Assembly (NCBI GenBank): GCA_964023275.1
Contig: OZ029921.1
Coordinates: forward strand, 30,115,230-30,179,229
DNA length: 64,000 nucleotides
Source of the DNA: Norana najaformis
Taxonomy: Eukaryota > Annelida > Clitellata > Crassiclitellata > Hormogastridae
Direction: 5' to 3'
The notes under the pieces are model-generated. The model was not told the origin of the DNA. It made no database searches and was given only the letters and a program-made list of their open reading frames with translations. Of this stretch, positions 7,288-53,539 are shown piece after piece. A program made the translations under genes and the position numbers. How positions within the stretch are numbered: the stretch's first letter is position 1; each line of letters opens with the position of its first letter.

Positions 7288-7318
<31 letters not shown>

Positions 7319-7843
7319 AAGAAGAGAAGAAGAAGAAGAAGAAGAAGAAGAAGAAGAAGAAGAAGAAGAAGAAGAAGAAGAAGAAGAAGAAGAAGAAGAA
7401 GAAGAAGAAGAAGAAGAAGAAGAGAAGAAGAAGAAGAAGAAGAAGAAGAAGAAGAAGAAGAAGAAAGAAGAAGAAGAAGAAGAAGAAGAAGAAGAAGAAG
7501 AAGAAGAAGAAGACGAAGAAGAAGAAGAAGAAGAAGAAGAAGAAGAAGAAGAAGAAGAAGAAGAAGAAGAAGAAGAAGAAGAAGAAGAAGAAGAAGAAGA
7601 AGAAGAAGAAGAGAAGAAGAAGAAGAAGAAGAAGAAGAAGAAGAAGAAGAAGAAGAAGAAGAAGAGAAGAAGAAGAAGAAGAAGAAGAAGGAAGAAGAAG
7701 AAGAAGAAGAAGAAGAAGAAGAAGAAGAAGAAGAAGAAGAAGAAGAAGAAGAAGAAGAAGAAGAAGAAGAAGAAGAAGAAGAAGAAGAAGAAGAAGAAGA
7801 AGAAGAAGAAGAAGAGAAGAAGAAGAAGAAGAAGAAGAAGAAG

Positions 7844-7873
<30 letters not shown>
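7123..7873. repeat. (GAA)n trinucleotide array, about 750 bp
   Basis: About 250 GAA units with single-base interruptions (gaga, gaaag, gacgaa). Short relics of the neighbouring GAATAC hexamer remain at about 7186 and 7275, showing the two arrays grew from one another. Purine-only strands of this length can form triplex DNA. Confidence 0.99.
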
Positions 7874-7874
<1 letters not shown>

Positions 7875-8234
7875 GGACGGCGCCTATGCATACAGCCGAA
7901 ATCAAAGGAGAGAAGGCGGTGCCTGTAGCCGAGACTAAAGAAACGGAGAAAGCCAGGAACTGGTCGGCGGGTCCCAACCGGTCCTCAAGGTCAAGAAAGC
8001 AGCAGCGCCCGACGAAGGTCAGCCGTTGGGTTAAGGTCGAGGAGACGTCGGCGCTCGGGTCATCGAAGTTCACGACGCTGGTGCTATCGAAGCAGACGAC
8101 GACTGCGATGAAGAGGAGGAAGGAGGATGTGCTGGACGTCCTCCCGATCCGCATCAGATGTCCTCGCTGTCCATCGAATAAACGCCGGCAGAACGTTATA
8201 GCAATAATGATAATGATGGTGGTAGTATTGGCAG
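7874..8234. other. GC-rich unique island between two microsatellite arrays
   Basis: About 340 bp of CpG-rich single-copy-looking sequence between (GAA)n and (AAT)n. A 142-codon frame crosses it but runs into AAT repeat, has no recognisable motif and no codon signature; I do not call a gene. Confidence 0.5.
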
Positions 8235-8443
<209 letters not shown>

Positions 8444-26011: not shown

Positions 26012-29000
26012 TTACCAGATTGCTTCAACATAGTTGCCAGGGAATGTGCCCAACTTCTTTGTCCTTTCTGACATTCCAACGAACCAACCGTCATCATATT
26101 TTTCCATCACGTAAACAATGTCACCTTTGTTCAGTTCCAGCTCATCTCCTCTTCTTGGATCGTAAGCAAACACTGCAAGATATCTGTAAAGTAAACATGT
26201 AGGCCTACACATAAGTGGCACTGTTGAAAAACATTTACAATACAAGTTTTAAAAGGTTTGCGTGAGATACTGTAATAGCTCAATTATCATTTATTATATT
26301 TAAACAATTTTATATTATTTGTTTTAGGACCTCTTGGCTCAAGAACAAACTTGATTACATGAATCCAACAGCTGGACAACTTTACCTTACAGGTTGCACA
26401 ATTTAGAATTTATATAGCGCCACTTCAAGATAGACTCATCAGAGGAGCTTCCGGCCCGATGTCTCAGAGCTGATAGGGAATAATGCAGGCTTCAAGTGCT
26501 TGCAGAAAAGAAAGGGAGAGAGAGAGAAGAATTCTCGCCAAAATCACCAGGCATGTTGTTCCATGAGGCGGGGTCAATGACAGCAAAACTATGACACTGT
26601 GCAGTAGCAGATCAGCCCGGAGGATCACCAGGTCTTCCTTGACCTCTGACCGCAATAATCTGTGGCCAGGGATAGCGGAAACTAGGACACAAAGTTCCCG
26701 TAAATAAGTCAGAGCGCAACCAACAAGGCAGTTCCACACGAGGACCAAAATGTCAGAATGAACACGCTATATTTCTCACCTGGAATTTCCAAAGCCTTGG
26801 GTATTGGGTGCTGGATCCTTGTCGCCTGCCAACGTCTTGTGTGTCGGCCAAACAGTGGCAGTTTTAACAGGGACCAATTTAGCTCCTCCAACATTAGTTC
26901 CAGCAACACCAGAAGACGGCGCACGAAATTCATAAGACTTCTGCATTGGCTGGCTTGCAACATTATTACCCTGATTAGGAGTCTTAAAAGGTCCATTTGC
27001 GAAAGCTGATGCAGGTCTTAAGCGATCATTCTTGAGATGGTCCTGTGATCTAAACGATTCTGTTGTATTAACGTCAGACCGGTAAGATCTATTTGACGTT
27101 TTCTGGTCTGTAAAAGACTGGTTCTCGTGTGTTGGCGCTCGGGCAGAATTCTTACTACGCATGGCCACATCCATGCTGCCACCGCTTTGATGGCTGGCAT
27201 TCTTGCCATAAAATAAATCATTTCTAAATGCTGAATTTTGCCTTTGGTTTGAGTTTTGATTCATAACAGGAGACGAAGTCAATCCAGACGTCGACAAACT
27301 TGAAGAGGATGTCAATGATGGTTTTGTGTTCTCTGGAAATCAGTCAAAAAAATCAATAAATAACACAGCATAATCACAAAATATCATCTGCTCATAAAAA
27401 TATATCCGTTGATGCTGTTATTAAACAGTAGAACGCATGCATGAAAGCATAAATGTATGTATGTATGGATGTATGCATGTATATACATGTATGTATGTAT
27501 GTATGCATGCATGCAGACAGTTAATATAGTGCCTGTTGTGGAGTTAGTATAAAAGTACTTTCTAGCTGCACAATGAATTACTGAAATCACCTTTAGGAGA
27601 AACAACTTTCTTTGGAGATGACATTGAACTCGGCTCTTTGGTGATTTCAACGTAGTTTGCTGGAACAAACCCATTTCTTCTTCCATTGAAGGCTTCAAAC
27701 CAGTCTTTATTTACCCGACTAACAAGCGTGAGTTCATCATTCTATTCAAAAACAAAATCACCAGTTAATGCATTATTTGTTGCAGGTTCTCCTTTTAATT
27801 CATTTAACTTAAGACAATTGCTTGACGGAATGGTATTGTTGACATCGTCAGTAAATACTTAAGAAATGAGGTCATTCCATTAGTGAAACACAGGTTTCTT
27901 TTAGGTCTACTTTTTCACATCATTCTGACTACAGGCTGAATGTATTTAGATCATATTTTGATGGTCTGGAAAAAGTTATCTAATTTCACTTGATTGTTTC
28001 TGGCTTGTAGCTCTAACCTGAAAAAACCGGAACTAAATATCATATAAGTCATCAGGTTACCAAAAAGGAACAATGAGTCAAATTTAAGTTGTAATAAATT
28101 AAGAAGAAATGTTCTGATGCGTGACCGTGATGCGCCAATAAATGGATGAACAAAAAAGTTCATCACTAACATATATTCCTTTACTGTACATCCAGTGCAT
28201 ACGGTATATCTCAAAATTTCGACAGCATTCTTTAATGACATCTCAAAAGCAATTCTACCTATTTGTTCTACCAATTGATAAGACATCTGAAATGATTAAA
28301 CGAAAAAGCAAATACAAAACACTTCACTATCACGTACATTCTGACATAATGTGGACAATGACATGAATAATAGATTTAGTTCAAAAAGTGACACATTGTT
28401 AAAGTATGGCGATTTTCCTATGATTCCCAAAACAGTGATATAACAGTTCCAGTGCATGCACATAAACGATAAAAATCTTACATAAACTTTTAAACAGATA
28501 TAAGTTAACCTTTTTAAAAGACAGTTCTAGTACTGTTTGAGCACTGAAGTCGTAGAGGGCATAACCTTTGCCAAAATTCTGTGTTTCTGGCAAATTTGCC
28601 TCTTCCGCAGAACTCTGTCTCTTTAAACACAATAATCAAAAATTTACGCAGTGTGACAAAATTTAATTTCTCAGAAGACCAGATTTATTACTGAAAGGCA
28701 AATCTGTAGACATAAACAAATATGTAAAAATTAAATTTCCGAATGGAATGAAGCTCTGACACAAAAAGAAGTTTCATGAAAATGTGCCAAAAATGAAAAG
28801 AGAGCAAACAAAATGTGGGAAGTAAAGAAATGAATAACAAAGAGCAGCAAAGAGTAAATATAAGGATAAGAACAACAAATAACCAAAAACCTTGTATTCT
28901 ATGCAATGAGACTGTCCAATATTTTAAGTTAAACTTGAGATGCGCCTGTTAAGAACTGTTAGGTGTCCGTGTTCCAGCGAATTTGGAATATGCTAGTAAC

Positions 29001-32000
29001 TTGGACCCAAACTGCAACCTTATAAAATAAACTCTATTCGGTTTAAGTATTCAAAGTTATTTTAACTAATCAGGGTAAAGCCACAGGGTAAAGCCACAGA
29101 GAATTTTAATGCTTATCACCGCTATTTTTAATGTTAAAAATTTATCTTCTTTTGTGCAACTCAATTCTGAATTTAGAATAAGATTCTGAAGACCTGAAAA
29201 AATTTCTCTGCTTTTAGTTAACAGTATACAGTAAAACAACGTCTTACCTCCACAAAACTAATGGGAAATTTTCCAACTTTGCCGTTGCATTCACCTTTGT
29301 ACCAGTTATCGTCAATCTGATGAAATACGTAGACAGAGTCACCTTCACAAAATGATAAGTCTCTGCAAAACATACAATAAACCAATGCAAAACTACCTTC
29401 ACAAAATGACAAGTCTCTGCAAAACATACAATAAACCAATGCAAAACTACCTTCACAAAATGACAAGTCTCTGCAAAACATACAATAAACCAATGCAAAA
29501 CTACCTTCACAAAATGATAAGTCTCTGCAAGACATACAATAAACCAATGCAAAACTACCTTCACAAGATGACAATTCTCTGCAAAACATACAATAAACCA
29601 ATGCAAAACCACCTTCACAAAATGATAAGTTTGCAGAATGTACAATATACCAAAGCAAAACTATTTGAATGGTCTTATGTATTAATATCAAAATTTGTGT
29701 TAAGTTTAGGTACAATTTACTTGCAGTCATCGTTTTGATGACTGACTCCTGGATCTTGACCCTTTTGCCTATCGATTTTGTTTTCACTGAGCGCCTGTGA
29801 ATAAGCTGGTTCCCGCGACTTAGCTTTCGTTGAGCGCTGTAGAAATCTCGAGATTACGATTACGATTGATCAGCTATCCAGGAATTATGAGGCACTGATT
29901 AAATTAATATATAAAAATTACCGGTAGAAACCCTCTACTTTGCAATCAAACAACAGAAATACTGCCATTGTCATTGTGGACCAGCAAAGCAAGAAGAAGA
30001 CTTGCTTCAGCTAAGCAGAAAGACAAAATTCACACTCAAAATTCATTTTTTGATAATTCCATTCATCAAAGCTGAAGTTGTTTTGCAAAATTTCTAACAA
30101 GTCGTATGTTCTTACGAGGGACTTTGTGCTCTGAACGAGTAAACAGCTTTAGCACAAGTAATCGGATTGGTTGCATTATTCCTAACAGCTGGTTGGACTT
30201 TCTGAGGAGCATTCTGTGGTTTCACATCATGCTGTGATCTCCTGAAATATTCCAACAAAATGACACTCTTATCAGTACAATTAGGAAATCTGCTTATGTT
30301 CTACACATTTCAGGGGTATTGTGATGTTACGTGAAATCATTCTAGTTAAACCTTGAAATCCTCTCTAGTTAAACCTTGTACTTCCACTGAGTCCAGAAGA
30401 AGATTACGTTCAGCTTCAAAAGGGGACTTTGAAGTCAGGAGAGTTAATCTACAGTTTGGTAAAAGAATGTTTGAAGTAGCTGGTCCAGCTGAGTGGAACT
30501 CTTTACCTGAATCTATTCGAAGATGCTCTTCAATAGATAATTTTAAATTAAAACTTACGACTCATTTATTCTCTCAGTACTATAACTAATTATTATGTTG
30601 TAACGCGTCCTTTGAGTAAGACATTGTTTTATTAAGGCGCGTTATAAATATAAGTTGTATTGTATTGTATTGTATAAAGCTACATGGTCTTCCACAAAAC
30701 CTATCCTGATTCCTCCTCTTTATGTTGCTTTACTAAACAGAAATAGGAATTACATGAACAGTCTTCAAACATGTTCAGCATAGTTTTTCTAAATGTTTTT
30801 CTGATTACTGACTGTATTGTTGCGGCTGGCAGATTACGTATTCCATGGTTGCTCACAGCTGAAGTCGAGTTGTAACCAGAAGACAGGTGTGAATAAGATA
30901 GTTCAGAGCTACCCTAAAATTCATAAAATTTCATCAGAACTTATTGTTGGATAAGTTGGCTGAAAGATCATTGAAATAAACAAAAATGAGTGGTACAGTG
31001 CAGCATAAGTACCCCTCTTATCATCAAATAATAGTATGTAAAATACTGCTGTAAAATACTACTGTAAATATTTTTAGAGCATGAATTGTCACTAAACTGG
31101 TTGTGAAAAATAAAGTTTTTTTAGTTCATTTCAGTTCTGACGTTATTTGGTTATTTCTAGTTATAAGTACTAATAATTAGTGAAGATTTTAATTTGGTAG
31201 TTTTGTCATTAAACACTATTCTTACCCTTTCCTCCAGCTGGTTAGGCCTAAATCCATTCTTCTTTACGTTCCAATTGTCGCTAGTTACTTTATCTGTTGG
31301 TGCTGAAGTCTTAAATGCAGCAGACGTAGTGACAAGGGAATGGTTGCCATTACCTAGTAATAAAAACAGTAAATTTAGAAGTAACAGTAATATGAGGATA
31401 ACGAGAAATGGGTTAGAAGAAACAACCAATTCATTCATTATAGGAGTTTTGTTTTCGCGTTTCATACCAGCATTCTGCCAGAATTTACCAAATAAATGTT
31501 TTTTTAGAACTTGGCAGAGGTTGGTACCTGTACTCGTACTTGAGTAGTACTCGAGTACCAGTTCAAAGTACTTGCATTTGCATTTGTACTTGCATCTTGA
31601 GTACTCATACTTGAGTAGCTGTTATGGAGGAATTATAATTTATGTAGCACTGTATAATTCAAAATGGAGTTCATATCTGTTTGCCTTTGTCTTTCAAGGC
31701 ATGCATCAATTTTTGTTCTGTATAATAAAATTTTCTTGACACTGCAATCTGTTGTGAGAATAATGTTCAGAAAAACATTTACATTGCGTGTACTTGTCGT
31801 TGGCACCAAAGTATTTGTGCTCATATTTGTGTTTGCACTTGAGGATTTGATAGAAGCCTAGAATTCCGCTCCATTACTTGTAATTCCTTTGTCCACGATT
31901 ACCTACGGAATTTGGACAAATTTTCCCTCCGTTTAACCAGAAAGAGCTACAGTATTACCATTAGATGCCGAGAGATGAGGGTCGCTTTCTGTAATCAAAC

Positions 32001-35000
32001 ATTTCTGATGTTTTTCTTTCTGCCACTCATTGCCAATAATTTCCAAGTTTCTCATGAGATCCAGTGGATTAAATTCTGCACGATGGCATTGAACAATGCT
32101 TCTGAAAGACATCCCTCTGCAAAGGTTCTGAAGGGTATCGTAATCAAAGGCAGTATGTTCAACGCCGTTGTTTGCATTACGCTGGAAGCGTGAATTTTGA
32201 TTACTAAGGTTAAGCATACGATCCTTCGGCTGTAGTCTGGCAAGACCACAACTTAAGGAATCACATGAATTATCTGAAAACTTTTTGTCGTTTATCTTCA
32301 CAGACTCTACATTAAACTGGTCGATTTGAGAGACAACTACTTCGTTAAGACATGTTTTGCTTTTGTCAAGAATGTCATTGCTGGCATCAAGTGCTTGCCA
32401 ACCAAATGATGACTCACTGCTAGCATTCTCCCACCCAGTAAAAGTCTCATCTCGGCCTGCACCAGGTTTTTCTCTACATGATCTAGCCTCACTGGTATAG
32501 GTAACAGATTGGCACCCAATGTTCTCCACAGCCAAACTCCTACAACTTTCACCAAAATTCCCAGGACCACTCTGGCTGAACCGAATGCCTGAATGACTAC
32601 AACTTATTTCAGAATAATCTGGTACAATTAATGACTCAAGTTTTTCAATATCATCATTTGCAACAGTCAGCGAAATACCATTACGGATTTGTCCTGAACT
32701 GAGGTAAGTGGGTTTCAAAAACTCGTTCTGCAGCCTTTCAGGTGCTTCTCGATCCTGTGACAACACCTGTTTAATACTTGTTTGATAACAGTCATTTGCT
32801 TTTGGTGCACAGCTGAATTTCCGTACTTTTGCGTGACTGCTGTGAATGAACTTTGGCCTCAAATACACTGGTTCACTAGAAAGGCAGACTGCGGGATCAC
32901 AGTGAGAAGACAGAACAAAGTTTCCAGAATTAGGGTAAAAGCTAGTGTCGAAGGAATCCTCTGAATCTCGTGCCAGTGGGCCATCTTCCTCATTCAGATA
33001 TGCAGTCGGCCGTTTGTTCAAAACAAATCGTGTACTGGTATTCTCTGCAGGTGACTGATCAAATGCAAAGCATGGATCTGAACGAAACAAATGTGCATTC
33101 TTTTTCTGCAAATGCTTTCCAGAGTTTCCATGTCCTGCAAGACACGAATCTTGAAAGCCAGCTGATACTGTGACTGTTTCATTGACGTTACTGTTTCTTT
33201 TATCAGTCTTCTTTAATATACACCTTGGAACAGTTTTTGAAATTTCATCGGTCATTGCTGATTCGCTAGCATAACTCATGTCAGTTTCATGTTCAAGAGA
33301 CAAGAAACATTTTTCAGGATATTGGTCAATCTCTTTGTTTAAACCTTGGTTACACCTCTGCTCGTTTTTGTTCATCTTAGTATGTTGTTCCTTGAAATCA
33401 ATCTCTCTACCAGGTGATGTTGATAAGAAATCACAGCACTCCAACTTCTTAAACATAAAATCCATCTCAGTTCTACCTGGACTTCGAACAACTAAACGGT
33501 CCTTTTGGATACATTTTCCATCATTTCTATTCAGTGATGAACCTAAGCACTGACCACCTGACTGTGAAGTCCAGTTCATGTTTTCACTGTCCTCTTCATA
33601 GCAGGCAAGTTCGTGATTTCTTTGAATATCACATTCATTTAATTTCTGACAAAAGCTGTTGTTGGAGACATTTACCAAAACACTTTTGTTGCTACCAAAG
33701 CAAGCATTTCCTAACTGCCTGCCCTTTGCTTCTTCCATGTTCTTTCTTCTTTCTGCCGCCTTTTTCACCTCCCTAATACCACGTTGTCTCTGAAGCCATG
33801 ACATATCATTCAAAGACTTTTCAAAATCCTCTTGACTCTGATGAGGCAGAGCATTAGATAATTTTCCAAAAGCAAAAGCAGACATGTTTTTTTCCTGATT
33901 TCCAACATCTGCATCGAAAACTTGTTTATCAAACGAATCAAAATTTTCCCCGCGATTTTCAGCGGATTTGGTTTTATGCCTATGGCTATCAACATAAATC
34001 TCATAGCCGTTTCGATTTTCGTTCATAAAATAACCATGTACGGCACGCTCTTTCGACTTTCTACTTGCACTTTCCATAAGATGAATGTAAGTACCTGAGA
34101 GTTTTGAGGCATTCTGACTGGTGACTGATCGCCTGTGATTTTGTAACCTCCAAAATCTTTCAATCAACTTTTCTAATTCAGCTCTTTTGTCCAGCTGCTG
34201 ATATTTCTGCTGAAGCCGCTCAAAACAGAAGGCTCTGTCAAATTCCTTTTCTTCTTGTTGCCGAAAAATCTGGAGACAGGCCTCATGGAGTATTTTTCTT
34301 TGGTAAGCCACAACGAGGTCTTGAATCAAGTGACATCGATTACGCAGTCCACTGTCACTTTCTTCTCTCCACTTGAATTTACCAATATCTTTCTTGAGGA
34401 AGTAGGACAGGTCTCTATCTTCTAACACCATTTCCAGCTCTTGATAAATTCTCTTTAACTCAGATAAATGATCAAGTTTTCCAAAAGACGAGGCTTTCAT
34501 ATCTGCGGCCAAAGTTAGACTAGAAAGCGACCGAGATCGAGGCAGGGCCTGACCTCTTTGAAAGTACATGGATGAATATTTCTTGTCTAAATCCAATTTC
34601 TGCAGCTGAGATATTCTTTCCAATGTGGCATAAAGCTTCTGTAATTTTAAAAACTTTTCCGATTGCTTAGAGGAGTGTAAAATTCCGGCCATGTAACTCT
34701 GATAGACTTCGTGGTTGAGACGAGAAGCTCCAAAAATTACCTGATCAGATGTTCTTTGAAAATTGCACCCAATGTTGTTGGTTCTTCTCCTCGCGTTGAC
34801 TTGGTTTGCAACTAATACTGTACTGATGTCACTTGCAGACTGTTGTACTAGACCAACTGATAAGCCAACTTTGTTGACAACTGAAGCGGAAGTGTTTGGG
34901 TTACTCACAGAATCCCATTCTGTCGACAATTCACTACTTTCCAGTGCACACTTTCTTTCTTCACCATTTTCCAGCAAAAGATTCTTGGATATATTTTCCT

Positions 35001-37292
35001 CGACATCTGACGTAATAACTGAATCATGTCTATGAACACGAACACGTTTTTTAACTTTCTTTTTCAATCGATCAGAGCAATTCTGTAGACATTCACTTTC
35101 AGCCTCTGTCAAAACTGCAGTTCCAGATGTAGACTCTTCTGCTGAAGTCACTTCAGTATATTTCTTTATGCAAGGCTTAAGTTTTCTTTGTAAACAAGCA
35201 TTAGCATCAAGGCCTCTGTGAAAGCGTTTCACCCCACTGTTTTTTCTTTCACTATTTTTATTACTGAGCATTGGCCAACGTCGATGCTTTTCCAACAATT
35301 CCTGTTTTACATTTTCAAACAAATAAGTTCGTTCTGAAATGCTCATCTTTTAAGAAACTCAGAACTTAACCGAATGAAACTTTTCTAAGTGTCTCATCCA
35401 GTATTGTAAAAACTATCCTGTGTGCATTGTATTCAGCTAAATACTTTCAGAGTATTTACAGCTACTTCAAAATACCAGAATATCAATATAATTTTGAATA
35501 AAAGAGAACTGAAATATCCTCCAACTGGAAAAAGAGACTGATGTGGAACCAAATATTCTGATATCATTATTATAAACAAATTGGTCCTGCAGCAGTCAAA
35601 ATTCCAGAGAACCACAAGCCAGATGCTGCACACTGCCCTCTGCCAAGAGTCTCTAGTTGTTAATTACAGGTTGCCTGATGAACTAAATGAACAGTGAACA
35701 AGACCACTGACACAGACACACACACAGACACACATACAGACACACACATACAGTCACACATGTCAAACAAGTGACCAAACCCAGATAGAAGAATGCATAA
35801 TCACATATGGTAGCAATTACTGAACACGATAACATGCACCAGCTTGACACACACATACATACATACAAATCAATATCATCATAACAATGTGCTCATTAAG
35901 CAATCTATTCATTCACACAAGTATATATAATAAATAAATTTGTATACATATTATAATTATACATAAATACACTGTAACCAGCCAGTCTGTTACTCAGTAC
36001 GGTATCATAATTCTTGGCAACATGTGACTCTGGCAGAAATCTATCATGTAGCAGCTCCATTTCTAGAAAAATCACAGATCTTCGTAGCAAAACTAGTTAC
36101 ACAGTGTGCCGAAAAAACAGAAATGTCATACTGTTAAGTTGTTTAGCTCCATCGACCGGTTGCGGTCGTACGTTGTTCCTCTGTCTTTGTCCAAGGGATT
36201 CCTCGTCAAGTGCTGATGTTGATTTCCAAAATGGACGCTTGTTTAAGCGTAAGTCTGATTCTTCTCTGGTTTCTGACCTAAACAGTAACATTCTCAGAGT
36301 TGCATAAGCATTTCTACTCTTAAAGTAACTGAAATTTATAATTTAAATTCCAAAATTCACAAAAGACAAAGGACAGTTAATATTATAAGATAATGAAAGG
36401 CAATCAACTATTTTTGGCTTTGGACAAAATTAAGGGATCTGCTATGATTAAGTAAAAAATTAATGATCCGTCAGAAATAATTAATTTATCAGATGCCACT
36501 ATTAGTTCTTATAATAAGCAGCAAAAGTTTTCACCTTTGATTTGGCTTTGTGTATACTTCGTCACTGTCCAAGTTTTTACCAACAGAAGAATAGAACTGA
36601 AATACATCAACAACAGGAATTTACAGAAATCTCAAAAAATATCCTTCTGCCCTGAAAGGGATTTGAACTCCTGACCTCTCGGACGACAGTACAGCACACT
36701 AACTGTAGCACATCCAGAAAAGTGCCACTCAAGTAACAATGGTACTAACGGACCTTAGCAGCTGAAATATTTAGCCAAAGAGGATCCTATTGCATGAATA
36801 ATTAATCGGTGTTGGATAGATTTACATAACTTATAACTTATATTTGCATAATTTATTTACATAACTTACAGAGGTTCCATATCAACAGCAAACCAGACTA
36901 AATGCCAAAACCATCTTCACCCATGGGGCATACTTGAATCAAGTAGTAACACACCACACTTTACTTTCAGCTGTTGGGGGTTAAATTCTTATGCAAAACT
37001 GCCTTTTTTTCTTCAAGCACTCGGGAATGCACCAGACCAGAAGCAGAAAGCCACAGGTATGCCCCTGTCATTTACACAGTGTGCAGAAAAAACAGAAATA
37101 TCATACTGTTAAGTTGTTTAGGTATGCCCCTGTGCCATACAGGCTATAGGGATTAGATTAAAGTCAAGCAACCTTTAAAAACGAATACAATGATTGGACT
37201 GCTGTTATCACAATTAAATTCAAACTGATAGATCCTGCACTCTAAGGACAACATCTTTTAGGATCACAGCACTGAAATCATCCTACGTATAC

Positions 37293-37325
<33 letters not shown>

Positions 37326-40300: not shown

Positions 40301-43300
40301 CAACATTTACCAGAGCAGTAGATAATGCAAGTTAAAGATACAGATAAATATATTGTTGTCATGAATGGACAAATATAAACACTAAACAAATCCTAACGTT
40401 TCCTGTCTTAAAAGGAAGAAAAAAAAAGAAAAAATTCCAGGACCAAAGAGTAATCCAGTTTAAAATCCATTTAATCCAGTTTAAAATCCATTTAATCCAA
40501 TTTAAAAATCCATTTAATCCAGTTTAAAATCCATTTAATCCAGTTTAAAATCCATTTAATCCAGTTTAAAATCCATTTAATCCAGTTTAAAATCCATTTA
40601 ATCCAGTTTAAAATCTGCCTTGTAGTTCACAAACTGCTACATATAAATCAGTCAACCTAACTCTGTTCCATACTCTACAGTCATACCAATAAATATTGCA
40701 CTCCATCAGTGAATCAATGCCTTGTATGAGAAGAATGCTTGGTTCTTGAGCGTTCTCGGTTGCTAGTCCACGGCTTTGCAATTACCTGCCAAGTTCTATT
40801 CATTATGTCAGTTCTTTGGTGTCATTTGGGTCTACACACCAAAGCATAACTTTCGGTTTCTCTGGCCTATCAGAATTCGACCTGGCTTTACCAATGGATT
40901 ATGATTTTTAATACGATTTCAGAATTACAGAATTTACAGAATTCAGTAGTAATGGTTTTTCATTCAGCGTTCGTTATTACGCTACTAAATGCCAGGGCCT
41001 GTTTTTGTCTCATTCTACGCCATCGACTGAACTGCCAAATAACTTGTAAATATTAGAAATGTCCATAGAAGAGATCGAAACTTTAATTTATAATTATAGG
41101 CCTATGATGAACAATTCTTTAAAATTTTCTTGAATGACTTTCTTGATTTATGGAAAAATGATAAACTTTAAATTTTATCTCGTAAATTACACAGTATTTG
41201 TTGCACAATTTGTGATCAAGCTGATTGGAAAATAAAATATTACCTAAATCCCTGTCACTTTTATGCAGAGATTTATACATCTCTTTGTACCAGTCCTTCT
41301 GGTTTTTCTGTTCCACAGACTGAAATGAATAACGAGTTGTTTATAGAAAAAACATTTTAAAAATCAGGCGATCATTCTAGACAACAAGATGAGTCAGCCT
41401 GAAACTTCTGTTTTGTAGCAAATTTTAAACAGATTTTTAAAACAAAACTTCACACTAAATAAAAAATTCAAAACAAGAATTAATGATAAAAGCATACGAA
41501 TTTAATCTCACACTTCTTGTAGCAATCAGAACTCCTGTTTTTTCATCCACTGGTCCAATTCCTTCAAACATCACATATTTCTTTTCTGAAGGAACTTGAT
41601 CTGTTTGAAAATTATTGACTGCAGAACCAGTGTATTTGCTATCAGACTTTGTGTGGGTCTGCAATTTGTCCTGTAAAGAGGCTTCACTTGGAGACTGGTT
41701 CCCTTTTTCCTGTGAGAAGTTCTGTACACTGGAATTCCGGGAATTGCTGGCAGTATTTGAGTGTTGATCCTGTTTTTCGTAGTTGTCATCTGTCATCTCC
41801 AATTCAGCAATTCCAGACTGACTGAAACTTTCTTCCATCTGATTTCCTCTGTTCAGAAATCTGTCTCCTTTCCATTTCTTCAACCTGTCAGTGGAGTTCA
41901 GTTGGTCATCCGTAAACGTGCTTTCTGGATGTCTAATAACAGAGGAGCTTAACTCAGATGTTGGTTTAGACACGAATGAGTTGCTTAAGTATCTTCTGTC
42001 TGAGGAGTCGTCTTCAAAAGAAGTGAGAGATCTTGAAAGTTGTCCTTCAGCTGCAAAGTAATAAGCAAACCAAAAATCAATACCCTGATTAGGTCAATAT
42101 TCCAAGCAAAACAAGCTTTGCAAAATGTCACTTAAAAGATGCTACAAAACCTATTTCTTAAGCTAACAAGGCATAAGAAGCAATGGATAATATTCATTTA
42201 TTTTTGCAAATAATGTACAAATATCTACAGCTTAATGAGTGTTAAGAGCCGCACAACAGACACTATATAAAAGACAAAACTTGAAAAAGACATATTACAC
42301 GATATAATGCCACATATAAAATTATAAAACTTGAACAAGACAAAACACCACTAATAGTACAATTAAAAAACTACTAATAGTACAATTAAAAAACTACTAA
42401 TAGTACAATTAAAAAACTACTAATAGTACAATTAAAAAACTACTAATAGTACAATTAAAAAACTACTAATAGTACAATTTAAAAACTACTAATAGTACAA
42501 TTTAAAAACTACTAATAGTACAATTAAAAAACTACTAATAGTACAATTAAAAAACTACTAATAGTACAATTAAAAAACTACTAATAGTACAATTAAAAAA
42601 CTACTAATAGTACAATTTAAAAACTACTAATAGTACAATTAAAAAACTACTAATAGTACAATTAAAAAACTACTAATAGTACAATTAAAAAACTACTAAT
42701 AGTACAATTAAAAAACTACTAATAGTACAATTAAAAAACTACTACTGCCCAACAGTATGGTTTGTACAGTTTGAAGTGATTCAAGCATAGTGTGTTTTTA
42801 CCCTCACTCAGTCTGAAATCCTGAAACTAATAACTTAGGAACTGTTATAAGAGCAGAAATTAAGCTCATTATGCTAATTTCTACTTGGTATTCCAGCTTG
42901 ATCTTTTGGCAAAAATATAACTAAACGCCCATAAAATTTACTAACAAAATAATAAACCTAGCCTAGTTAGTCCACAAGACAGAGAAAATAGACTGAAACG
43001 TGTCAAGCCTTCAAAAGGTTGTATTTCTGACCTCGTTTCTTTTGCAGAAGAGTGATGGTAGGATTTTTAACAACAGGTAATCGAGACTGGCTATCTGAAA
43101 GATTTACATCTAGTGAAGAAATGGAATTAGGATTCCTTGAATTTGATAAAGCAGTGATGCTTGGAATGGAATAATCAAAATCCACGGAATGAGATGTTGG
43201 CCGAGCTGAGATCAACCCAGCTGAGTTATTTGATCTGTCTTTTTCTAAATTCCACCGATTCTGTTAAAATATACATAAAAGATTAGTAATGTTACAGAAT

Positions 43301-46300
43301 GGCACCAGACAAAATCATAAACAATTCCTGCTTCAGATTGTCAATAACAGACAAATAATTCAGAAACTAAAGCCATACTTAGATTCCAGCAGCAAAACAA
43401 CTGTTGCTGATGATAATGCTGATGATGATGATGCTGATGATGATGATGAGAAGGAGGAGGAGGGCAGGAGGAGGAGGATTAGCAGGAAGGAGGAGGAGGA
43501 AGAGGATTGTGATGATGATGATGATGATGATGATGACAGACAATTTGCAGAGGGCTGTAGAATGGCAGAGGGTAAAAAAGGGTGCTGTAAATGTACAGTA
43601 ATTCGCTGACTGCAGCCCCATGTGGCAAAAGTGCCAGCATATACACTGTAAAAACAATTAATAAACAAATCAAAATGACACAGACATGAAAATAATATTA
43701 ATGGAATCCGGTGATTTCACAATGGTGTTATCATCAAGCTGATCAATCTGAATTAAAAACATACTGAACATAGGGTGAGGTTTGAATAAAGATTACTGAC
43801 AGTCTGATTGTTTAATAAACGGCATCTGAAATGCCATGGTGACCTTACACAGTCACTTGGCCACTTATTAGAAAATCAGAAGATAAGAAACAGTCATTTA
43901 TGGAACAAGAGGCTGTCTGTGAAAGACAGATTTCTCGGCTGCAAAGTATAGACCAACACAAACTGTCAGTAAACAGACAACATTTTCAAATCAGTTGAGC
44001 ACTAACCAAATTAGTTTCATTATCAACTGTGTTGTCTGAAGACGTGAAATTTCCATTTAGTTTTGTGCTTCCTGAGGTATATGTTGTTTTTTGACTCTCA
44101 GGAATATGTCTATGACCATGATCTCTATCTAAAATATAAAAAAACAAACTCACACTAAAGCCATTTTTAAACATGATTTTTGCATTGCAGGATGCCTTGA
44201 AATCTCTGACTTACTCACTCACTCACTGACGTTGGTTCAATGTGCAGTAAGACTAATATATCAACTGTCAAATTATAATTGTTTACAATAATTTGTGTTA
44301 CATTGTTAAATAATAAATTCCATAGATACAAGAAGCAATTTAATAAATTTGACAGCCGATAAAACTCTGAATACTGGATTGATTAAGCTCAGTGATCTCT
44401 AAAGAGGGTTAAATTCTAAAGATCAAAGTGACTGAGTACCTCCGAAAGCTCAGCACGAACTTCAGGAGAATTTAAAAAATAAAACATTCCAAACATGCTC
44501 AAATGTTCACTCATACAAAGAATGTCATGCATCTTACAAAACTACCGGTAAGTCATCTTCAGCTATTGAAATACAGTTGACTGTTGATTCAGTCACGTCT
44601 TGGGCATTAGGTATTTTGAAGACACAGATAAAGAGGTAAAGCAAACAAAACTCAGACCTGAAGTGAATTCAGGTGAAAGCAATGACTTTGGGGCATTTGA
44701 ATTCATGTTCTCTCCTTCCTGCGACGAAACAGCTCCGTTAAGAACTTCAAACGAAACTGGGCGATAGGATTTCACAGTTTTCTGTCCTGTAGCACAAGTA
44801 AAATGAAGCAAAGTTAGGCATGGCTCATTTTTAACTGTCCTTATTATATGGTTGTCCTGCGGTTTTAGCAAAATGCAGAACAGACAGCAATGCATCATAA
44901 TCGTAATCCCAAGATTTCTACAGCACTCAACAAAAGCCGCGCCGCAGGGACCAGCTTGTTCACAGGCGCTCAGTCAAAACAAAATCGATAGGCAAAAGTG
45001 TTCGGTTCCAGGTCAATATCCAAGAGACAGGCAGAGAGACAGCATGGCAGCTATGCTGGGTGATTGGTGCGGAAAGAGGGATAAGAGAAAGAAGGGGAGT
45101 CAGGATAGGATCTGTGAAAAAGGACTGTTTTCAGTTTTAACTGAAAGGTCAATACAGAAATTGCAAGCGGTGGAGCATAGGTGAGTTAGTATGATGGGTC
45201 AGATAACTGTCACAGTTCTGGAGGAGTTGATTCCAGAGTGGTGGGGCAGCTATGGCTATGGAGCGACTGCAAAATTTTAAGGACGAGGTGATGGACAGGT
45301 AGAGCAATGAACAACTCTCCATAATGGACTTTTTGCTGTTCTTGAGAAGGACAATGCGTTTCTAAATTTACTTGTGAACCAGATACCAAAGCCAGTGCAT
45401 GGCAATATCGCTGTACCTCTATCCCCATAATACATGTTATATTCCTTCGTGTTTACGGAGAACTGTAAAGCATATTTCAAGGCTAATTTCAATGATATTA
45501 GCCGTGAAATAGGACATTTGTCACGTGTTGTATTCTGGTTCTCAACAACACCAGCACGAATCTAAATGTACAAATTTTTCTATAGTGACTGTATGGCCTC
45601 GACCCTGCTCATTTTGCAATGAATTTTACGGGTGAGATCGTTCAACACCACTGCCCGTTTGAATAGGCATCATGCCATTCAACGTCCCGGTGCTAGCAAA
45701 TCTCTGACATATGTCATGAAGTAACCCTAGTAATTAATGGTTTCAACTAAACTGTTACCAACAGATGTGATATGATGGTATCAGCATAAATTTCCAGAAT
45801 CTTAAATTCTATAGATTCTACAGGTGTGTGGATAAAAAAGAAGCTAACCAAAAGTTGACAGCCGATTGGTTTTGTCGGCAAACGGAGATGACTGGTTGAG
45901 AGCGAGGCTGCTGGTGCTGCTGGTGGTGCCATAGTTGGCTGAAATGGAAGATGAAGGGGAGATGTAAGAGAGACTGTCAGCAGATGAAATGCCAGAGGAT
46001 GAGACATCACCATTGCTAGAAAAAGGGTGACCTCTGAAAAATAAACATCATTATACATGTATTCCACAGAAGCAAGCAGTTCAATCAAATCATTCATGAC
46101 AAATTAAACATAATAGTATTGCCTTCAGCAATGAAACATGGACTTTTCTGTTTTGCCAAGGATGGGTTGGTGGTGCCACTGATTAGATTTCTTCAGGCTA
46201 TACTGTATTATTCACGTTCAACCACGAATGAATGTTAGCTGTCCAACAGCCATAAGTAACATTTCATCATGAGAGATATGGAAAGATTTTACCCATGAAA

Positions 46301-49300
46301 TCATGTATTGCCATATTTGTATTTGCCCTGTAAATTTTAATTGCCTGAGACTTTAAAAATTTTCTCAAAACAACTTAATGAGAAGAACTTACCGAATCAG
46401 CTCCAGAGACAAAACATCTCCAGCGTTTCGCACAATCTGCATCACCGCAGAACTGGACATGCCAGTGACTGACTGACCATTGATGCTGTGGATAACATCT
46501 CCAACCTGAATACCTCGACTGTGAGCCTTACTGCTGGCATTCATCTGTTACACATTAAAACAAGATCTAATTTAAACCAGCCACAGCTTCACATAACCAA
46601 GCAATCCTTGACAAGGAAGACCAAGGCTATAACACATTTGCTGTATGTGTGTATGCATGTGTCTAGCTATATTGCATGTTTGACCTTTAAGGCTCAGAAC
46701 ACATCTTAATACATTGGTGACTCCATATCACCCACCTAGATTCTTGCATTCTTCTGATACTGGTTTGTTGCAAGAACTTAGGTTCAGAAAAATAGTAGGA
46801 TCACGAGTTACCTTCAGCTGCTGTACACCTTACATATGGAATCGTCTACCACAAAACTTGCAAACTCACTTTCTTCTTTTAAATCACTTTCTTAATACTC
46901 ACTACTTTACCCTAGCTTTTGCATGATTCAACTTGGCCCCTAGCGAACATACATCCATGCCTCGGATTCTGGTGTACTGACATTGCGCGCATTGTAAGTG
47001 CTTTAATAAATAAAGTAAATAAATATATCTTTAGATAGCATCTTTACACAGCTCAGAACCTTTTGCAGGCCCTTGCTTGTTGTTTGAGTTTATTCACAGG
47101 TACTCATAGTCTTAGCATTAGGAGGTAAGAGCTCAGCCAGTCAACCACTGCATCTAATATTGCAATATGTTATAATAGACATAAACGTCACAAGTGCTGC
47201 ATTTATCCAAGTTCACTTTTTATCAGTTCTTCAATTGGGAAAGTCAATTTCAATTCCGTGCGTTTCCACTTCTTCTTCACATTTTATTCACAATTCACAT
47301 TTCTGCTTCAAAGTGTATTCAAAGTGTACTTCAAAGGGTATTCAGAATTTGCACTAGTTTATGCAGATTTAAACTTGAAACAGAAATCGCGAGTTGCTTG
47401 CAAACTTAACCCAACGTCAGTTCAGTGGTGATGCGAATGATGAGTAGGTCTAAACTGTTTACAACTAAAGGCATTTTCTACCCAGGATCTCAAGTGGGCA
47501 GATTTTGTTTGAAAAAAATAAGTCATAGAAAGATGTTACACTGGTGTACATATAATGGAGTCAACAAGGTTTTGAATCAACTAGCATTCAAATCAACAAC
47601 TGTTTGAAATCACAAGTATTTCAATCCACAAGTAAACAGGTATGAGGAAAGATACTTTCAATTAATCCTAAGACATGTTTCTAGATCTGTCAGACGACCA
47701 TATTCCCTCACCTTTTACAGTTTAGCAAAAGGTGCTACATAAATTTTCAGATATACATGCAAGCATACAAGACGGAAGTTAACTAACAAAAGAAAGAGTG
47801 AACTGCTTTGTCAACAGTCAGTGTTTACTGAGATAAGCGAACAGAACATAGGTGATCTTGTTACATCCTACCAGATGCTTCAAGCACAATTTGCAAAGAA
47901 AAACTAGGCCACTGTTTACTAATCTATTGGAAATTTCAAAGACGTCATATAGCACTGCTGCCATAACAATATGAGTCAACCGATTAATCGACTGATTGAT
48001 TAATTAATTCACTGACTGTCTGACTGACTGATTGATTGATTGAAAATCTATGTACCTGATAGTGCTTTGAATATATCAGATAACGGCGACTACCAAGTAA
48101 AAGTCTGTATAAAAAAATTTAGCAGATCCACTAGCTTTACATTTGCAGCATATTTCTTACTTCGAAAGTGCTGGGTTTGAACCTATGGTAGTAACCTGGA
48201 CAGCATATATGGTATTTAAGAAAAGCCAAAAACAGGTATTCAAAACCTCCAAAGAAGAAGGTACAACAGGCTAGTGCTACCTTATGATTCAGAATTGTTC
48301 AAAACACTACCTCAACTCTTGGATAACAACTAGAATGCATTAGCAATTGCTTCACATGTATTTTGTGTGCTAAAACTAAAACAGGAGAATCATAAACTTG
48401 AGATTTCTACAGTGCCTAACGAAAGTGAAGTCAAAAGAATCAGCTATTCACAGGCACTCAGACAAAACAAAATCAACTGGCAAGAAACGTTTGGTTCCAC
48501 ATCAAGAATCAATAGACAAGCAGGCAGGCAGTCGATGGCTACAGTGGGTGGTGTTTCGAACTGGATCTGCATGACAGATAAGGAATCAGGATAGGATCTG
48601 CAGAAGAGGAGTGTTTCAGTTTTTTAGTCTTGAGCGGAAGACCTGCGCAGAGATTGCAAGGGGTGAAGTGATGGTGAGTTTATATGATGAACCAGATGAT
48701 TGTCGTAATTCTGATAGGAGTTTATTCCACAGAGGTGGAGTATCTATGGCTATGGTGTGGTTTCCAAATTTTAAGGATGAGGTAACAGGAGGGCAGAGAA
48801 ATGTTAGGGCAGAAGCGGAGTGGATTGAACAGAGTGGTTGGATTGTAAATAACTGACAAAGATAAGAGGTTTGGGAGGACTGAAGTGTGTTGTAGGTAAG
48901 TGACAGGACTTTGCACTTGATTCATTCAGGTATTTTAATCCAGTGAAGTGATTTGAGAACAGGAGTGATGTGATGGGGTCTGGGGGTTTTGGTGACAGCA
49001 CGAGGAGAAGAAGAAACTTAAGATTAACTTACACGAGTTTTCACAGCAGCTGTAATCAGTATGAAAATGTTAAATTGTTCTGCTGTCTTAGTTGTAACGA
49101 ACTGCAATTTACACACATGGATTGAGTCTAATTATGTGAAGTCAGTGTCAGTTTTTACGTGTAAACAAAACTACATAGGAAATCAGTCCTTAACTCGAAT
49201 GACGTCACACAGAAGCCTTATCCTGATTAAGATGTTAGGGCAGTAGAAACTTTACTCGTAAAGTCCAATCAGACTTGCATTCCTTTGTTGGCTAAGAGCC

Positions 49301-52300: not shown

Positions 52301-53539
52301 ACAAAAATATGAGGGCATTATTCATTGTTCGTTCATCAAATTAATTTCTAATTTCATAGCAACAACAGGCTGTTGTTATGGTACACAATTTGTACCTGCA
52401 GTGAAGCAATCAAGTTTTACGTTCTGCATTGGGAAAGTTCTTTCAGTTACGGTTATCTGTTTAACAGGAGCAGTTGAGGCTTATAAACTGGTCAAAGAAG
52501 CCAAGCTGTTAAGATGCCTGCAACAGGCAGAGTCCCAGAACAGTCTTGATAGGCAACACAAGTGGCTGACATAAGATGTCTGGTGACTCTATTCTTGCAG
52601 AAAACAGCAAGAATAGAGTCACCAGACTCAAAGCAAGGAACAACAGCTCCAAAGGTACCAAACCAAATGGATAATACCCGAAGAAATATGGAGTGGTTTG
52701 CAGTTTTGGAGCAGATGAAAGGAAATGAGTTGCAACGTGTTCTATCATTCTGAACACGAGTTCTTACAACATTCACTTCTGTTCTGTTTTACATTTTAAT
52801 ATGCTGAAGAATATGTCAGCAATCTTCATTTGACTGATTATTATTTCTCATATTCAATTTGAATAAACCCCTGTATGGCTCATGAAAGCAAGAAAGATCC
52901 AGCGTTGTTTCTGCAGGCCTCATGCTTGATTCTGCCCGTGGTAACAAACGCTTAAGCTGGCACAGCTTCACGACAAATTCCGTTAGTATATTTGAACGGA
53001 AAGAATTAGCCTATGTATTGGGGAGTGGAACTGGAGTGCCAAGTGTTCAGTTGGGGGGCCATGGCCTCTGACATCCCCTGTTGAGCTGTCCCTGCCCATG
53101 GACATTGCAACTTGTAAATGACCTAGGCTACTCTCAAATTCAAAACGACCCTAAAATCAAGTTCACAGGGATAATAAGTAGCACGTAAAGTTAAGTAATA
53201 GGCCTGCATAATTTATGTCTCACTCCTATTATATTAAACTTCTCAGAAACTCCCAAAGTCCCCAGAGTCCGTCCCTGATGGATCAGAGAGCTGTCTACCA
53301 AGTACACAACGCCGGAAAAAACTCGACTACACCATAACAAAGTCAGCAGGTACTTCAGACGATTTATGTCGAAAACAAAATCGATCAAGACCTGAATAAA
53401 GTGATACGACAGTCGACTGATCTGTGTGGCCTACCTTGGCTATCTTGACTCGTCGACCCCGGTCGCCGTCTCCTCCTACCCCGTCTTCCAGGCGAAAGCC
53501 CCAAGGGCTGCCGCCAACCAATTCCACTTTGAATAACAT
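26012..53539 (-). CDS. SORBS: CAP/ponsin/vinexin family adaptor with N-terminal PDZ, SoHo and three SH3 domains; complete, 22 coding exons
   Basis: Coding exons in transcription order: 53539-53435, 46544-46393, 46033-45849, 44786-44658, 44128-44007, 43260-43032, 42050-41512, 41319-41244, 40017-39970, 39370-39308, 38730-38541, 37518-37404, 36596-36535, 36277-36132, 31353-31226, 30913-30813, 30241-30116, 29362-29248, 28620-28510, 27741-27591, 27332-26780, 26183-26012. The total is 3618 nt, every junction is phase-consistent, and the product has 1205 residues. PDZ is at about 1-86, SoHo spans about 465-650 in pieces, and the SH3 domains are at about 826-877, 896-950 and 1149-1205. An in-frame TAG lies upstream of the start Met, so 53539 is the first usable ATG. 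Family members bind vinculin and other focal-adhesion, Z-line or septate-junction partners and organise actin. Vertebrate SORBS1/2/3 have no PDZ. Only one acceptor/donor choice per junction was checked, and alternative splicing is likely. Confidence 0.95.
26400..26765. repeat. Probable dispersed repeat in SORBS intron 21
   Basis: Starts with tttatatagcgccacttcaa, a word also seen near 37325 (tttatatagcgccgtaacgc), and has a repeat-like GC-rich body. It ends 15 bp from the exon 21 donor. No coding motif is seen. Confidence 0.4.
27430..27515. repeat. (ATGT/ATGC)n microsatellite
   Basis: Tetranucleotide run in SORBS intron 20. Confidence 0.9.
29343..29665 (-). repeat. 54-bp minisatellite copying the 3' splice site and first codons of SORBS exon 18
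   Basis: Six units begin at 29343, 29397, 29451, 29505, 29559 and 29613. Read on the minus strand each holds tgttttgcag, then the start of exon 18 (agacttatcattttgtgaag), then a donor-like gtagtt. The first unit contains the genuine exon boundary at 29362. Because 54 is a multiple of three and no unit has a stop, the whole array stays open in the SH3 frame ([18 protein letters not shown] per unit). Confidence 0.95.
29745..29868 (+). repeat. Dispersed repeat family A, right-end copy
   Basis: ttttgcctatcgattttgtt, gagcgcctgtgaataagctgg (partial) and gagattacgattacgatt match the 6190 copy; here the ATTACG tail is only three units long. Confidence 0.85.
30350..30680 (+). mobile_element. 5'-truncated LINE tail with (ATTGT)n end
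   Basis: An intact 78-codon frame contains [35 protein letters not shown] and [10 protein letters not shown], the C-terminus of CR1/Jockey-like ORF2. The stop is followed by a short 3' UTR (aaggcgcgttataaatataa) and gtattgtattgtattgt. It lies antisense to SORBS in intron 16. The intact frame suggests a fairly recent insertion. Confidence 0.85.
31933..35346 (-). CDS. 1137-codon ORF inside SORBS intron 14: alternative first/large exon or nested single-exon gene
   Basis: One uninterrupted reading frame runs from ATG 35346 to a stop at 31933, with an in-frame TAA two codons before the ATG. It lies between SORBS exons 14 and 15 on the same strand. A good donor (ATG|GTAATA) at 31959 leaves the frame in phase 1, exactly what exon 15 needs, so the ORF can supply 1129 codons ahead of the SH3 half. 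No convincing phase-1 acceptor links it to exon 14, so it looks more like an alternative first exon than an internal one. Residues about 220-405 are charged and probably helical ([44 protein letters not shown]); the rest is polar and disordered, ending with a conserved-looking block ([18 protein letters not shown]). I recognise no known domain. Vertebrate SORBS2 has a large neuronal exon at the equivalent position between SoHo and SH3, but homology is not established. Confidence 0.75.
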   Translation of the reverse strand: MSISERTYLFENVKQELLEKHRRWPMLSNKNSERKNSGVKRFHRGLDANACLQRKLKPCIKKYTEVTSAEESTSGTAVLTEAESECLQNCSDRLKKKVKKRVRVHRHDSVITSDVEENISKNLLLENGEERKCALESSELSTEWDSVSNPNTSASVVNKVGLSVGLVQQSASDISTVLVANQVNARRRTNNIGCNFQRTSDQVIFGASRLNHEVYQSYMAGILHSSKQSEKFLKLQKLYATLERISQLQKLDLDKKYSSMYFQRGQALPRSRSLSSLTLAADMKASSFGKLDHLSELKRIYQELEMVLEDRDLSYFLKKDIGKFKWREESDSGLRNRCHLIQDLVVAYQRKILHEACLQIFRQQEEKEFDRAFCFERLQQKYQQLDKRAELEKLIERFWRLQNHRRSVTSQNASKLSGTYIHLMESASRKSKERAVHGYFMNENRNGYEIYVDSHRHKTKSAENRGENFDSFDKQVFDADVGNQEKNMSAFAFGKLSNALPHQSQEDFEKSLNDMSWLQRQRGIREVKKAAERRKNMEEAKGRQLGNACFGSNKSVLVNVSNNSFCQKLNECDIQRNHELACYEEDSENMNWTSQSGGQCLGSSLNRNDGKCIQKDRLVVRSPGRTEMDFMFKKLECCDFLSTSPGREIDFKEQHTKMNKNEQRCNQGLNKEIDQYPEKCFLSLEHETDMSYASESAMTDEISKTVPRCILKKTDKRNSNVNETVTVSAGFQDSCLAGHGNSGKHLQKKNAHLFRSDPCFAFDQSPAENTSTRFVLNKRPTAYLNEEDGPLARDSEDSFDTSFYPNSGNFVLSSHCDPAVCLSSEPVYLRPKFIHSSHAKVRKFSCAPKANDCYQTSIKQVLSQDREAPERLQNEFLKPTYLSSGQIRNGISLTVANDDIEKLESLIVPDYSEISCSHSGIRFSQSGPGNFGESCRSLAVENIGCQSVTYTSEARSCREKPGAGRDETFTGWENASSESSFGWQALDASNDILDKSKTCLNEVVVSQIDQFNVESVKINDKKFSDNSCDSLSCGLARLQPKDRMLNLSNQNSRFQRNANNGVEHTAFDYDTLQNLCRGMSFRSIVQCHRAEFNPLDLMRNLEIIGNEWQKEKHQKCLITESDPHLSASNGNTVALSG
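36645..36735 (-). mobile_element. tRNA-derived SINE head (family C), second copy
   Basis: Minus-strand gtgctacagttagtgtgctg (A-box region) and ggagttcaaatccctttcag (B box) are followed by ggcagaaggata as in the 3730 copy. Located in SORBS intron 12. Confidence 0.6.
37055..37133. other. Inserted copy of the SORBS exon 14/intron 14 boundary between 14-bp direct repeats
   Basis: Segment 37071-37119 repeats 36095-36144 (ttacacagtgtgc..., ...actgttaagttgttta) with about two substitutions. It is bracketed by identical aggtatgcccctgt at 37055-37068 and 37120-37133. The source spans the exon 14 donor, so both exon and intron bases were copied. Confidence 0.8.
38120..38240 (+). repeat. Dispersed repeat family A, left-part copy
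   Basis: tcctatcctgattcttcctc, ggttcaattccaaacaccat and ccaccatagccagctgactg match the 56090 copy. Confidence 0.7.
39620..39835 (+). mobile_element. tRNA-derived SINE in SORBS intron 9
   Basis: caatggtttagtgatatggt (A box) and cgcgggtgcgaatctgc (B box) are followed by a body ending ctcgggcggcataaagccaa and then (CAT)n. The head resembles a tRNA but lacks pairing arms. Confidence 0.6.
40451..40613. repeat. 21-bp minisatellite, about eight copies
   Basis: Unit aatccagtttaaaatccatt plus t, near-perfect, in SORBS intron 8. Confidence 0.97.
42350..42745. repeat. 23-bp minisatellite, about 17 copies
   Basis: Unit ctactaatagtacaattaaa plus aaa, almost uniform, with a few tt-for-ta variants clustered in the middle. 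SORBS intron 6. Confidence 0.97.
43395..43545. repeat. GAT/GAG trinucleotide tract
   Basis: (GATGAT)n, a GGAGGA-rich purine block and a second (GAT)n run in SORBS intron 5; not coding. Confidence 0.9.
44905..45300 (-). repeat. Dispersed repeat family A, long copy in SORBS intron 3
   Basis: Order as at 10150: atttctacagcactcaacaa, ttcacaggcgctcagtcaaa, ggttccaggtcaatatccaa, ggagtcaggataggatctgt, gcagctatggctatggagcg. Confidence 0.85.
45560..45720 (-). mobile_element. SINE family B fragment
   Basis: tatagtgactgtatggcctc, gggtgagatcgttcaacacc and actgcccgtttgaataggca match the 10745 copy, including its position right after a family A copy. Confidence 0.7.
46690..47035 (+). mobile_element. 5'-truncated LINE tail in SORBS intron 1
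   Basis: An open frame has [32 protein letters not shown] and a final THYF, matching 'GDRAFS.AAP.LWN.LP' to 'FK..LKTHLF' of CR1-like ORF2. A short tail ends in ataaataaagtaaataaata. Confidence 0.75.
48385..48990 (-). repeat. Dispersed repeat family A, longest copy
   Basis: gagatttctacagtgcctaa, ttcacaggcactcagacaaa, gacctgcgcagagattgcaa, ttccacagaggtggagtatc and aagtgatttgagaacaggag extend the family by about 300 bp beyond the 45300 end, so the full element is over 600 bp. Confidence 0.8.
50450..50520. repeat. Imperfect ~33-bp inverted repeat (hairpin)
   Basis: Left arm aagtatgtgggaaggttcta... and right arm ...tagaaccctcacatactt are complementary with about five mismatches or bulges around a loop of roughly seven bases (catccca). 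Confidence 0.85.
52578..52627. repeat. Perfect 21-bp inverted repeat, 8-nt loop
   Basis: Left arm starts gtctggtgactctattct and the right arm ends agaatagagtcaccagac; all 21 pairs match around loop agaaaaca. Pairing stops abruptly on both sides. Confidence 0.97.

Follow-up and report, generated by a model that had tools for sequence, protein, structure and literature searches.

The locus described here raises the question of whether a PDZ domain of the ALP/Enigma kind and a SORBS adaptor are joined in one polypeptide, and what such a PDZ domain might then bind. The window (the whole stretch of 64,000 nucleotides that was analysed) lies on contig C9 of Norana najaformis, and the genome searched comprises 608 Mb in 17 contigs. 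The initial annotation had joined 22 exons in phase into a protein of 1205 residues. We rebuilt the gene from homology and splice sites and obtained the same exons and the same length. The model occupies the minus strand from 53539 to 26012 and encodes 1205 residues plus a stop codon; all 21 introns are GT-AG and the phases agree throughout. Exons were chosen in the rebuild with the frame in view, and hence not blind to the earlier claim. Together with the Pfam results, the model gives the architecture PDZ-SoHo-3xSH3. The exons (E1 to E22) and one candidate exon are listed below in the order of translation, each with the source of its assignment.

E1, 53435-53539, minus strand: start codon and N-terminal portion of the PDZ domain (ending VKIAK), phase 0 end; found again by the genome-wide PDZ query.
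E2, 46393-46544, minus strand: second part of the PDZ domain, 152 nt, phase 0 in and phase 2 out; Pfam PDZ.
E3, 45849-46033, minus strand: Ser-rich linker that continues from the PDZ in phase 2; open frame and splice sites.
E4, 44658-44786, minus strand: linker; open frame and splice sites.
E5, 44007-44128, minus strand: linker; open frame and splice sites.
E6, 43032-43260, minus strand: linker; open frame and splice sites.
E7, 41512-42050, minus strand: linker up to SoHo, phase 0 end; related phase-0-ending block at the C11 paralogue.
E8, 41244-41319, minus strand: SoHo core, phase 0 in and phase 1 out; Pfam, with identical borders at C3 and C11.
E9, 39970-40017, minus strand: follows SoHo; gene model.
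E10, 39308-39370, minus strand: linker; gene model.
E11, 38541-38730, minus strand: linker; gene model.
E12, 37404-37518, minus strand: linker with a 13-letter motif common to paralogues; motif matches at C15 and C16.
E13, 36535-36596, minus strand: linker; gene model.
E14, 36132-36277, minus strand: linker, 3' end uncertain; gene model.
Candidate giant cassette exon, 31959-35333, minus strand: 3375 nt, bounded by AG and GT, with phase 1 on either side; open frame.
E15, 31226-31353, minus strand: linker; gene model.
E16, 30813-30913, minus strand: linker; gene model.
E17, 30116-30241, minus strand: start of SH3-1; Pfam and structure match.
E18, 29248-29362, minus strand: remainder of SH3-1, the SH3 being divided by a phase 2 intron here and at C3; structure match.
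E19, 28510-28620, minus strand: first part of SH3-2, which a phase 0 intron divides here and at C3; structure match.
E20, 27591-27741, minus strand: remainder of SH3-2; structure match.
E21, 26780-27332, minus strand: linker preceding SH3-3; gene model.
E22, 26012-26183, minus strand: SH3-3 and stop codon; structure match.

When the 1205 residues were compared with Pfam-A, a PDZ domain was found at residues 6-84 (47.2 bits) and SH3_1 matched three stretches (124.9 bits over the whole protein). The Sorb (SoHo) family matched residues 470-511 with 20.8 bits and an E-value of 2.9e-4, covering 36 of 42 model positions. This score does not reach the curated cut-off of 27, and we assign the segment to SoHo by its E-value and its context. 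A search against the sequences of solved structures placed the SH3-1/SH3-2 pair closest to the SORBS1 tandem 2mox (E 3.9e-25), while SH3-3 was best matched by SORBS1 2lj1 (7.2e-21) and then by vinexin 2ct3 (3.7e-19). Judged by these matches, the three C-terminal SH3 domains are of the SORBS type. In the 1205-residue protein no LIM domain was detected by Pfam at E-values up to 0.1 and there was no Pfam match to ZM/DUF4749; none of the eight ZM/DUF4749 matches in the genome falls on contig C9.

Some parts of the gene carry repeats. The E14 donor lies within a stretch found again at about 37.13 kb, which makes the 3' end of this exon uncertain. A 54-bp unit is repeated six times at 29341-29663, spanning the border of intron 17 and E18; its copies include an AG acceptor together with the opening bases of E18, and the frame remains open. 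Since 54 is a multiple of three, upstream acceptors could add repeats of 18 residues to SH3-1. Minisatellites of 23 bp x 17.5 (42342-42744) and 21 bp x 7.8 (40451-40615) are situated in introns 6 and 8, respectively, and elsewhere in the window a very long purine-rich microsatellite (6291-8334) creates long but spurious open frames on either strand.

The interval between E14 and E15 contains an open frame of 1138 codons, which would arise by chance with a probability of about 10^-33 given the base composition. With its AG at 35333 and its GT at 31959 as borders, the candidate exon would contribute 1125 extra residues and bring the protein to 2330 in total. As it enters and leaves at phase 1, it can be either retained or skipped, and judging from its frame and ends it may be spliced in to produce a long isoform. 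The earlier description of the gene omits this 3375-nt candidate, although it lies inside the interval described. A search of the giant exon gave no Pfam match above cut-off; the one sub-threshold match was to RICTOR_M (E 0.1, 12.8 bits against 27). Pfam showed no LIM match at E-values up to 1, a PDB search likewise gave no match at E-values up to 1, and no credible counterpart was seen in 60 kb of C3 (best E 0.30). On these grounds we rejected the idea that the exon encodes a known domain. When 266 of its residues were folded as a single sequence, the model showed helices with a poor mean pLDDT of 52, and searching one C2H2 zinc finger pattern returned no hit in the 2330-residue protein.

Does the same arrangement occur elsewhere in the genome? 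The whole-genome query with the window PDZ, in which 24 candidates were scored, gave 17 matches at E-values up to 1. Apart from the two exons of the window itself, the strongest of these (E 1.9e-6) fell in a SORBS locus of contig C3. We compared 60 kb of this locus with the whole protein by tblastn and recovered PDZ exon 1 (E 0.085, by itself a weak match), PDZ exon 2 (1.9e-8), SoHo (0.004) and pieces of the SH3 domains (best 1e-15), all in the window order and on a single strand. The exon borders, where read from the printed sequence, are also those of the window: the PDZ is split at phase 0 and its second exon leaves in phase 2, the SoHo exon is entered in phase 0 and left in phase 1, and SH3-1 and SH3-2 are split at phases 2 and 0, respectively. 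Splice-site scoring of the C3 linker exons yielded no clear chain.

A genome query with SH3-3 returned 71 matches at E-values up to 1, from which we took the best seven loci (54-100% identity, E below 1e-15) as the SORBS-like set, leaving out C4:45.714M and C4:45.718M (47% and 49% identity). A PDZ exon is present upstream on the same strand at five of the seven, on five contigs. Besides the window, these are C3 (PDZ 18.4 kb upstream), C15:16.5M (15.6 kb), C11 (22.1 kb) and C16 (35.8 kb). For the remaining two, C15:19.26M and C1:45.08M, there was no PDZ among the matches listed, which represent lower bounds. In the printed sequences, all five SORBS-linked PDZ second exons align ungapped at 51 residues, with phase 0 in and phase 2 out, and the four paralogous copies are 33-45% identical to that of the window. 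The borders of the PDZ exon are not special to SORBS genes, since the exon at C16:16.83M and other PDZ exons of the genome have identical ones. At C11, a block resembling E7 (E 2.8e-4) precedes SoHo and ends in phase 0, and the SoHo exon (E 8.3e-6) has borders matching the window's. The E12 motif was located between PDZ and SH3 at C15 (E 0.23) and C16 (E 1.4e-5). SoHo was absent from the 9 kb read at C15, from PDZ to the E12 motif, and from the 9.5 kb read at C16, which is part of the PDZ-SH3 interval. At C11, C15 and C16 the SH3-3 genome query gave only partial matches to SH3-1 and SH3-2. A genome scan with Pfam Sorb produced five weak matches at E-values up to 10, two of them being the window and C3, and missed the C11 SoHo.

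The presence of an upstream PDZ at five of seven loci, together with SoHo and the shared borders at C3 and C11, indicates that the fusion belongs to a gene family and is not a mis-joined model. The initial annotation had taken the phase agreement between exon 2 and exon 3 as direct evidence, which overstates its value: such a match is expected by chance in 1 case in 3 and, as the frame was taken into account when the exons were selected, it is weak evidence. We rejected chance phase agreement as an explanation by means of the C3 and C11 paralogues. The proposed architecture itself is borne out by the Pfam and structure matches and by these paralogues in the same genome. Frames, phases, domains, paralogues and shared borders can all be read in the DNA, and on this basis the window gene is very probably real.

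We then considered what kind of PDZ domain it carries. Among the matches listed (the best 60 of 281) to solved structures, the window PDZ is closest to PDLIM7 (E 1e-8), and its best 20 comprise 12 PDLIM/Enigma and 8 syntenin chains. The C3 PDZ is best matched by LDB3/ZASP (7.1e-17); the best 16 of its 50 matches are all ALP/Enigma (ZASP/PDLIM), from 7.1e-17 to 4.4e-10, and MAGI1 comes next at 1.4e-8. The C3 copy looks the least changed. A Pfam scan of the genome for ZM/DUF4749 gave the eight matches mentioned above at E-values up to 1, three of them over the cut-off. At seven of the eight, a PDZ second exon lies no more than 12 kb away in the same orientation, and no nearby PDZ exon was present for the eighth among the matches listed. 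The window-PDZ genome query recovered one of these seven ZM-linked PDZ loci (C3:36.09M, E 0.25). In a weak tree built from 20 PDZ second exons and 51 columns, in which no branch is strongly supported, ZM-linked PDZs stand apart from SORBS PDZs (support 82/89) and cluster together in 85% of 200 bootstrap replicates, the five SORBS rows form a single group in only 12%, and the SORBS PDZs are not nested in the ZM-linked (ALP/Enigma) group. By its sequence matches, the N-terminal domain is a PWGF-type PDZ most like those of PDLIM/ZASP, even though the tree does not nest it among them. The term 'ALP/Enigma-type' used in the initial annotation therefore stands as a statement of likeness, carried by the PDLIM7 and C3 PDZ matches; descent is a separate claim, for which the weak tree and the recovery of one in seven ZM loci speak unfavourably.

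Class-I PDZ pockets have a His residue at alphaB1, and this position differs among the SORBS-linked copies: Ser in the window, His at C3, Ile at C15, Asn at C11 and Ser at C16. By comparison, the residue is His in six of the seven ZM-linked PDZs of the genome and Tyr in the other, and it is His in the LDB3 and PDLIM7 rows. The window copy accordingly lacks the class-I His. Strong PF08726 matches occur at six loci in the genome, and at five of these, on five contigs, there are alpha-actinin-like C-terminal exons (C7:25532293, C8:21091566, C5:40988886, C11:6721363 and C16:3856164). The five tails read GESDL, GESDM, GESDL, GESDL and GQSDF. The sixth locus, C5:13.38M, did not match the C-terminal tail pattern. 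ESDL-type tails being present in the genome, candidate class-I ligands exist. ALP/Enigma proteins bind alpha-actinin through their PDZ domain, according to the available part of PMC1781342. The anchoring to alpha-actinin and the Z-line that the initial annotation proposed for the window protein was an inference, and it does not hold in the form stated: with Ser instead of His at alphaB1 such anchoring is doubtful for this copy, which also has no ZM or LIM match. As far as the pocket residue predicts, C3 is the copy best suited to class-I tails, which the window copy is not, and a role with alpha-actinin at the Z-line is less likely for the window copy than for that of C3.

The five alpha-actinin-like C-termini, the 8 ZM/DUF4749 matches and the 7 strongly SORBS-like SH3 loci together give the impression of expanded cytoskeletal families, such as would follow a duplication of the whole genome or successive duplications of single genes. 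Two near-identical PDZ exons were also noted 14 Mb apart on one contig (L033, C13:10741980, and L034, C13:25190644); these may resemble synaptopodin-2-type PDZs.

The results taken together suggest that the gene probably encodes a SORBS (vinexin/CAP/ArgBP2) adaptor with an added N-terminal ALP/Enigma-like PDZ domain, and that it is one of a family in Norana najaformis. An alternative would be two adjacent transcription units, in which a small gene coding for the PDZ alone (E1-E2 and perhaps further, undetected exons) lies upstream of an ordinary SORBS gene. The length of intron 1, which separates E1 from E2 by 6.9 kb, is compatible with this, as is the model itself, which was derived from genomic DNA and in which the linker exons E3-E6 were placed by open frames and splice sites. 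Moreover, reading beyond the E2 donor meets an immediate stop (CGG TAA), likewise at C16, which in principle makes a PDZ-only product conceivable. However, a GTAA donor at phase 2 produces such a stop by itself. The arrangement is also repeated at five loci on five contigs, with identical borders at C3 and C11 where read, and separate genes would hardly remain adjacent and in phase at each locus. We therefore regard two units as very improbable and retain the single fused gene.

A fused gene leaves room for different histories of its PDZ domain. The domain could represent a separate PWGF-type lineage that does not descend from ALP/Enigma proteins, in which case no link to alpha-actinin or the Z-line would be implied. 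The separation of ZM-linked from SORBS PDZs in the tree, the lack of the alphaB1 His in four of the five SORBS PDZs, the syntenin chains among the window's best matches and the poor recovery of ZM-linked loci would all fit such an origin; on the other hand, that tree has 51 columns without a strongly supported branch, and ALP/Enigma structures fill the top of the C3 list ahead of MAGI1. On balance we find a separate lineage less likely than not. It is somewhat more plausible, though still short of an even chance, that the fusion is ancestral to animal SORBS proteins and that the PDZ was lost in vertebrates, flies and worms rather than gained here. The divergence of the five PDZ-bearing paralogues from the window copy suggests, in a comparison within this one genome, that the fusion probably predates their duplications. 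The reading that we prefer, an ALP/Enigma-like PDZ joined to a SORBS adaptor, is framed in terms of likeness.

If the gene is expressed as one unit, a single chain would join two scaffolds that are bridged in trans in Caenorhabditis elegans, from SORB-1 through rhotekin to ALP-1. In the available text of PMC10752531, placement of SORB-1 in the inner dense body depends on ALP-1, yet the two proteins do not bind each other directly, and rhotekin is the proposed link between them. The fused PDZ would do covalently what the worm bridge does, and one protein may do the work of several worm proteins. Transcription, ligands and cellular location are inferred. Since the class-I His is retained at C3, the natural ligand of that copy would be alpha-actinin, with its tails ending ESDL; the Ser-bearing window copy may have a ligand other than alpha-actinin. 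We put forward more tentatively that PDZ-SoHo-3xSH3 is an old and perhaps ancestral architecture, from which vertebrates, flies and nematodes would have lost the PDZ and come to use bridges such as rhotekin in place of a covalent tie to the ALP/alpha-actinin scaffold; here it would have been kept in at least five genes, with divergent pockets linking vinculin adhesion to different C-terminal tails. A multiplied family with altered pocket residues would provide a test of how an adhesion scaffold gains partners.

A PDZ-SORBS protein was not found in the literature searched, whose scope excludes subscription journals and protein databases, and the architecture may already be published or annotated. 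The available main text of PMC7259718 and PMC9898538 contains no PDZ. In the available part of PMC10752531 the PDZ mentioned is that of ALP-1 (one of two mentions), and in that of PMC6073136 the mentions concern rhotekin and other partners. The terms SH3, vinexin and sorbin are absent from the part available of the PDZ/LIM family paper PMC1781342, and the corresponding parts of PMC13364712 and PMC9090768 have nothing bearing on the combination.

Known systems resemble the window protein in separate parts. SORBS proteins comprise SoHo and three SH3 domains (PMC7259718, PMC9898538, in the text available). The vinexin-CAP-ArgBP2 family, to which Drosophila CAP and C. elegans SORB-1 belong, has SoHo and then three C-terminal SH3 domains in common with the window protein, which differs by its additional N-terminal PDZ; the available text of PMC7259718, PMC9898538 and PMC10752531 names no PDZ in the family. 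With the ALP/Enigma proteins (PDLIM, LDB3/ZASP and C. elegans ALP-1) the window protein shares a PWGF-type PDZ at the extreme N-terminus, whereas it has no LIM or ZM/DUF4749 match and carries Ser, not His, at alphaB1; the genome has ZM-bearing loci separate from the window gene. The neural long form of SORBS2, nArgBP2, presumably carries a long insert upstream of its SH3 domains, and the window gene is similar to it in layout, not in compared sequence, through the very long candidate exon that fits in phase between SoHo and SH3-1. Proteins of the SORBS and ALP/Enigma families come together at common sites, as described for worm SORB-1 and ALP-1 in the available text of PMC10752531. An ALP-like PDZ fused to a SORBS adaptor would act as a Rosetta stone for the SORBS-ALP link, predicting which contact matters.
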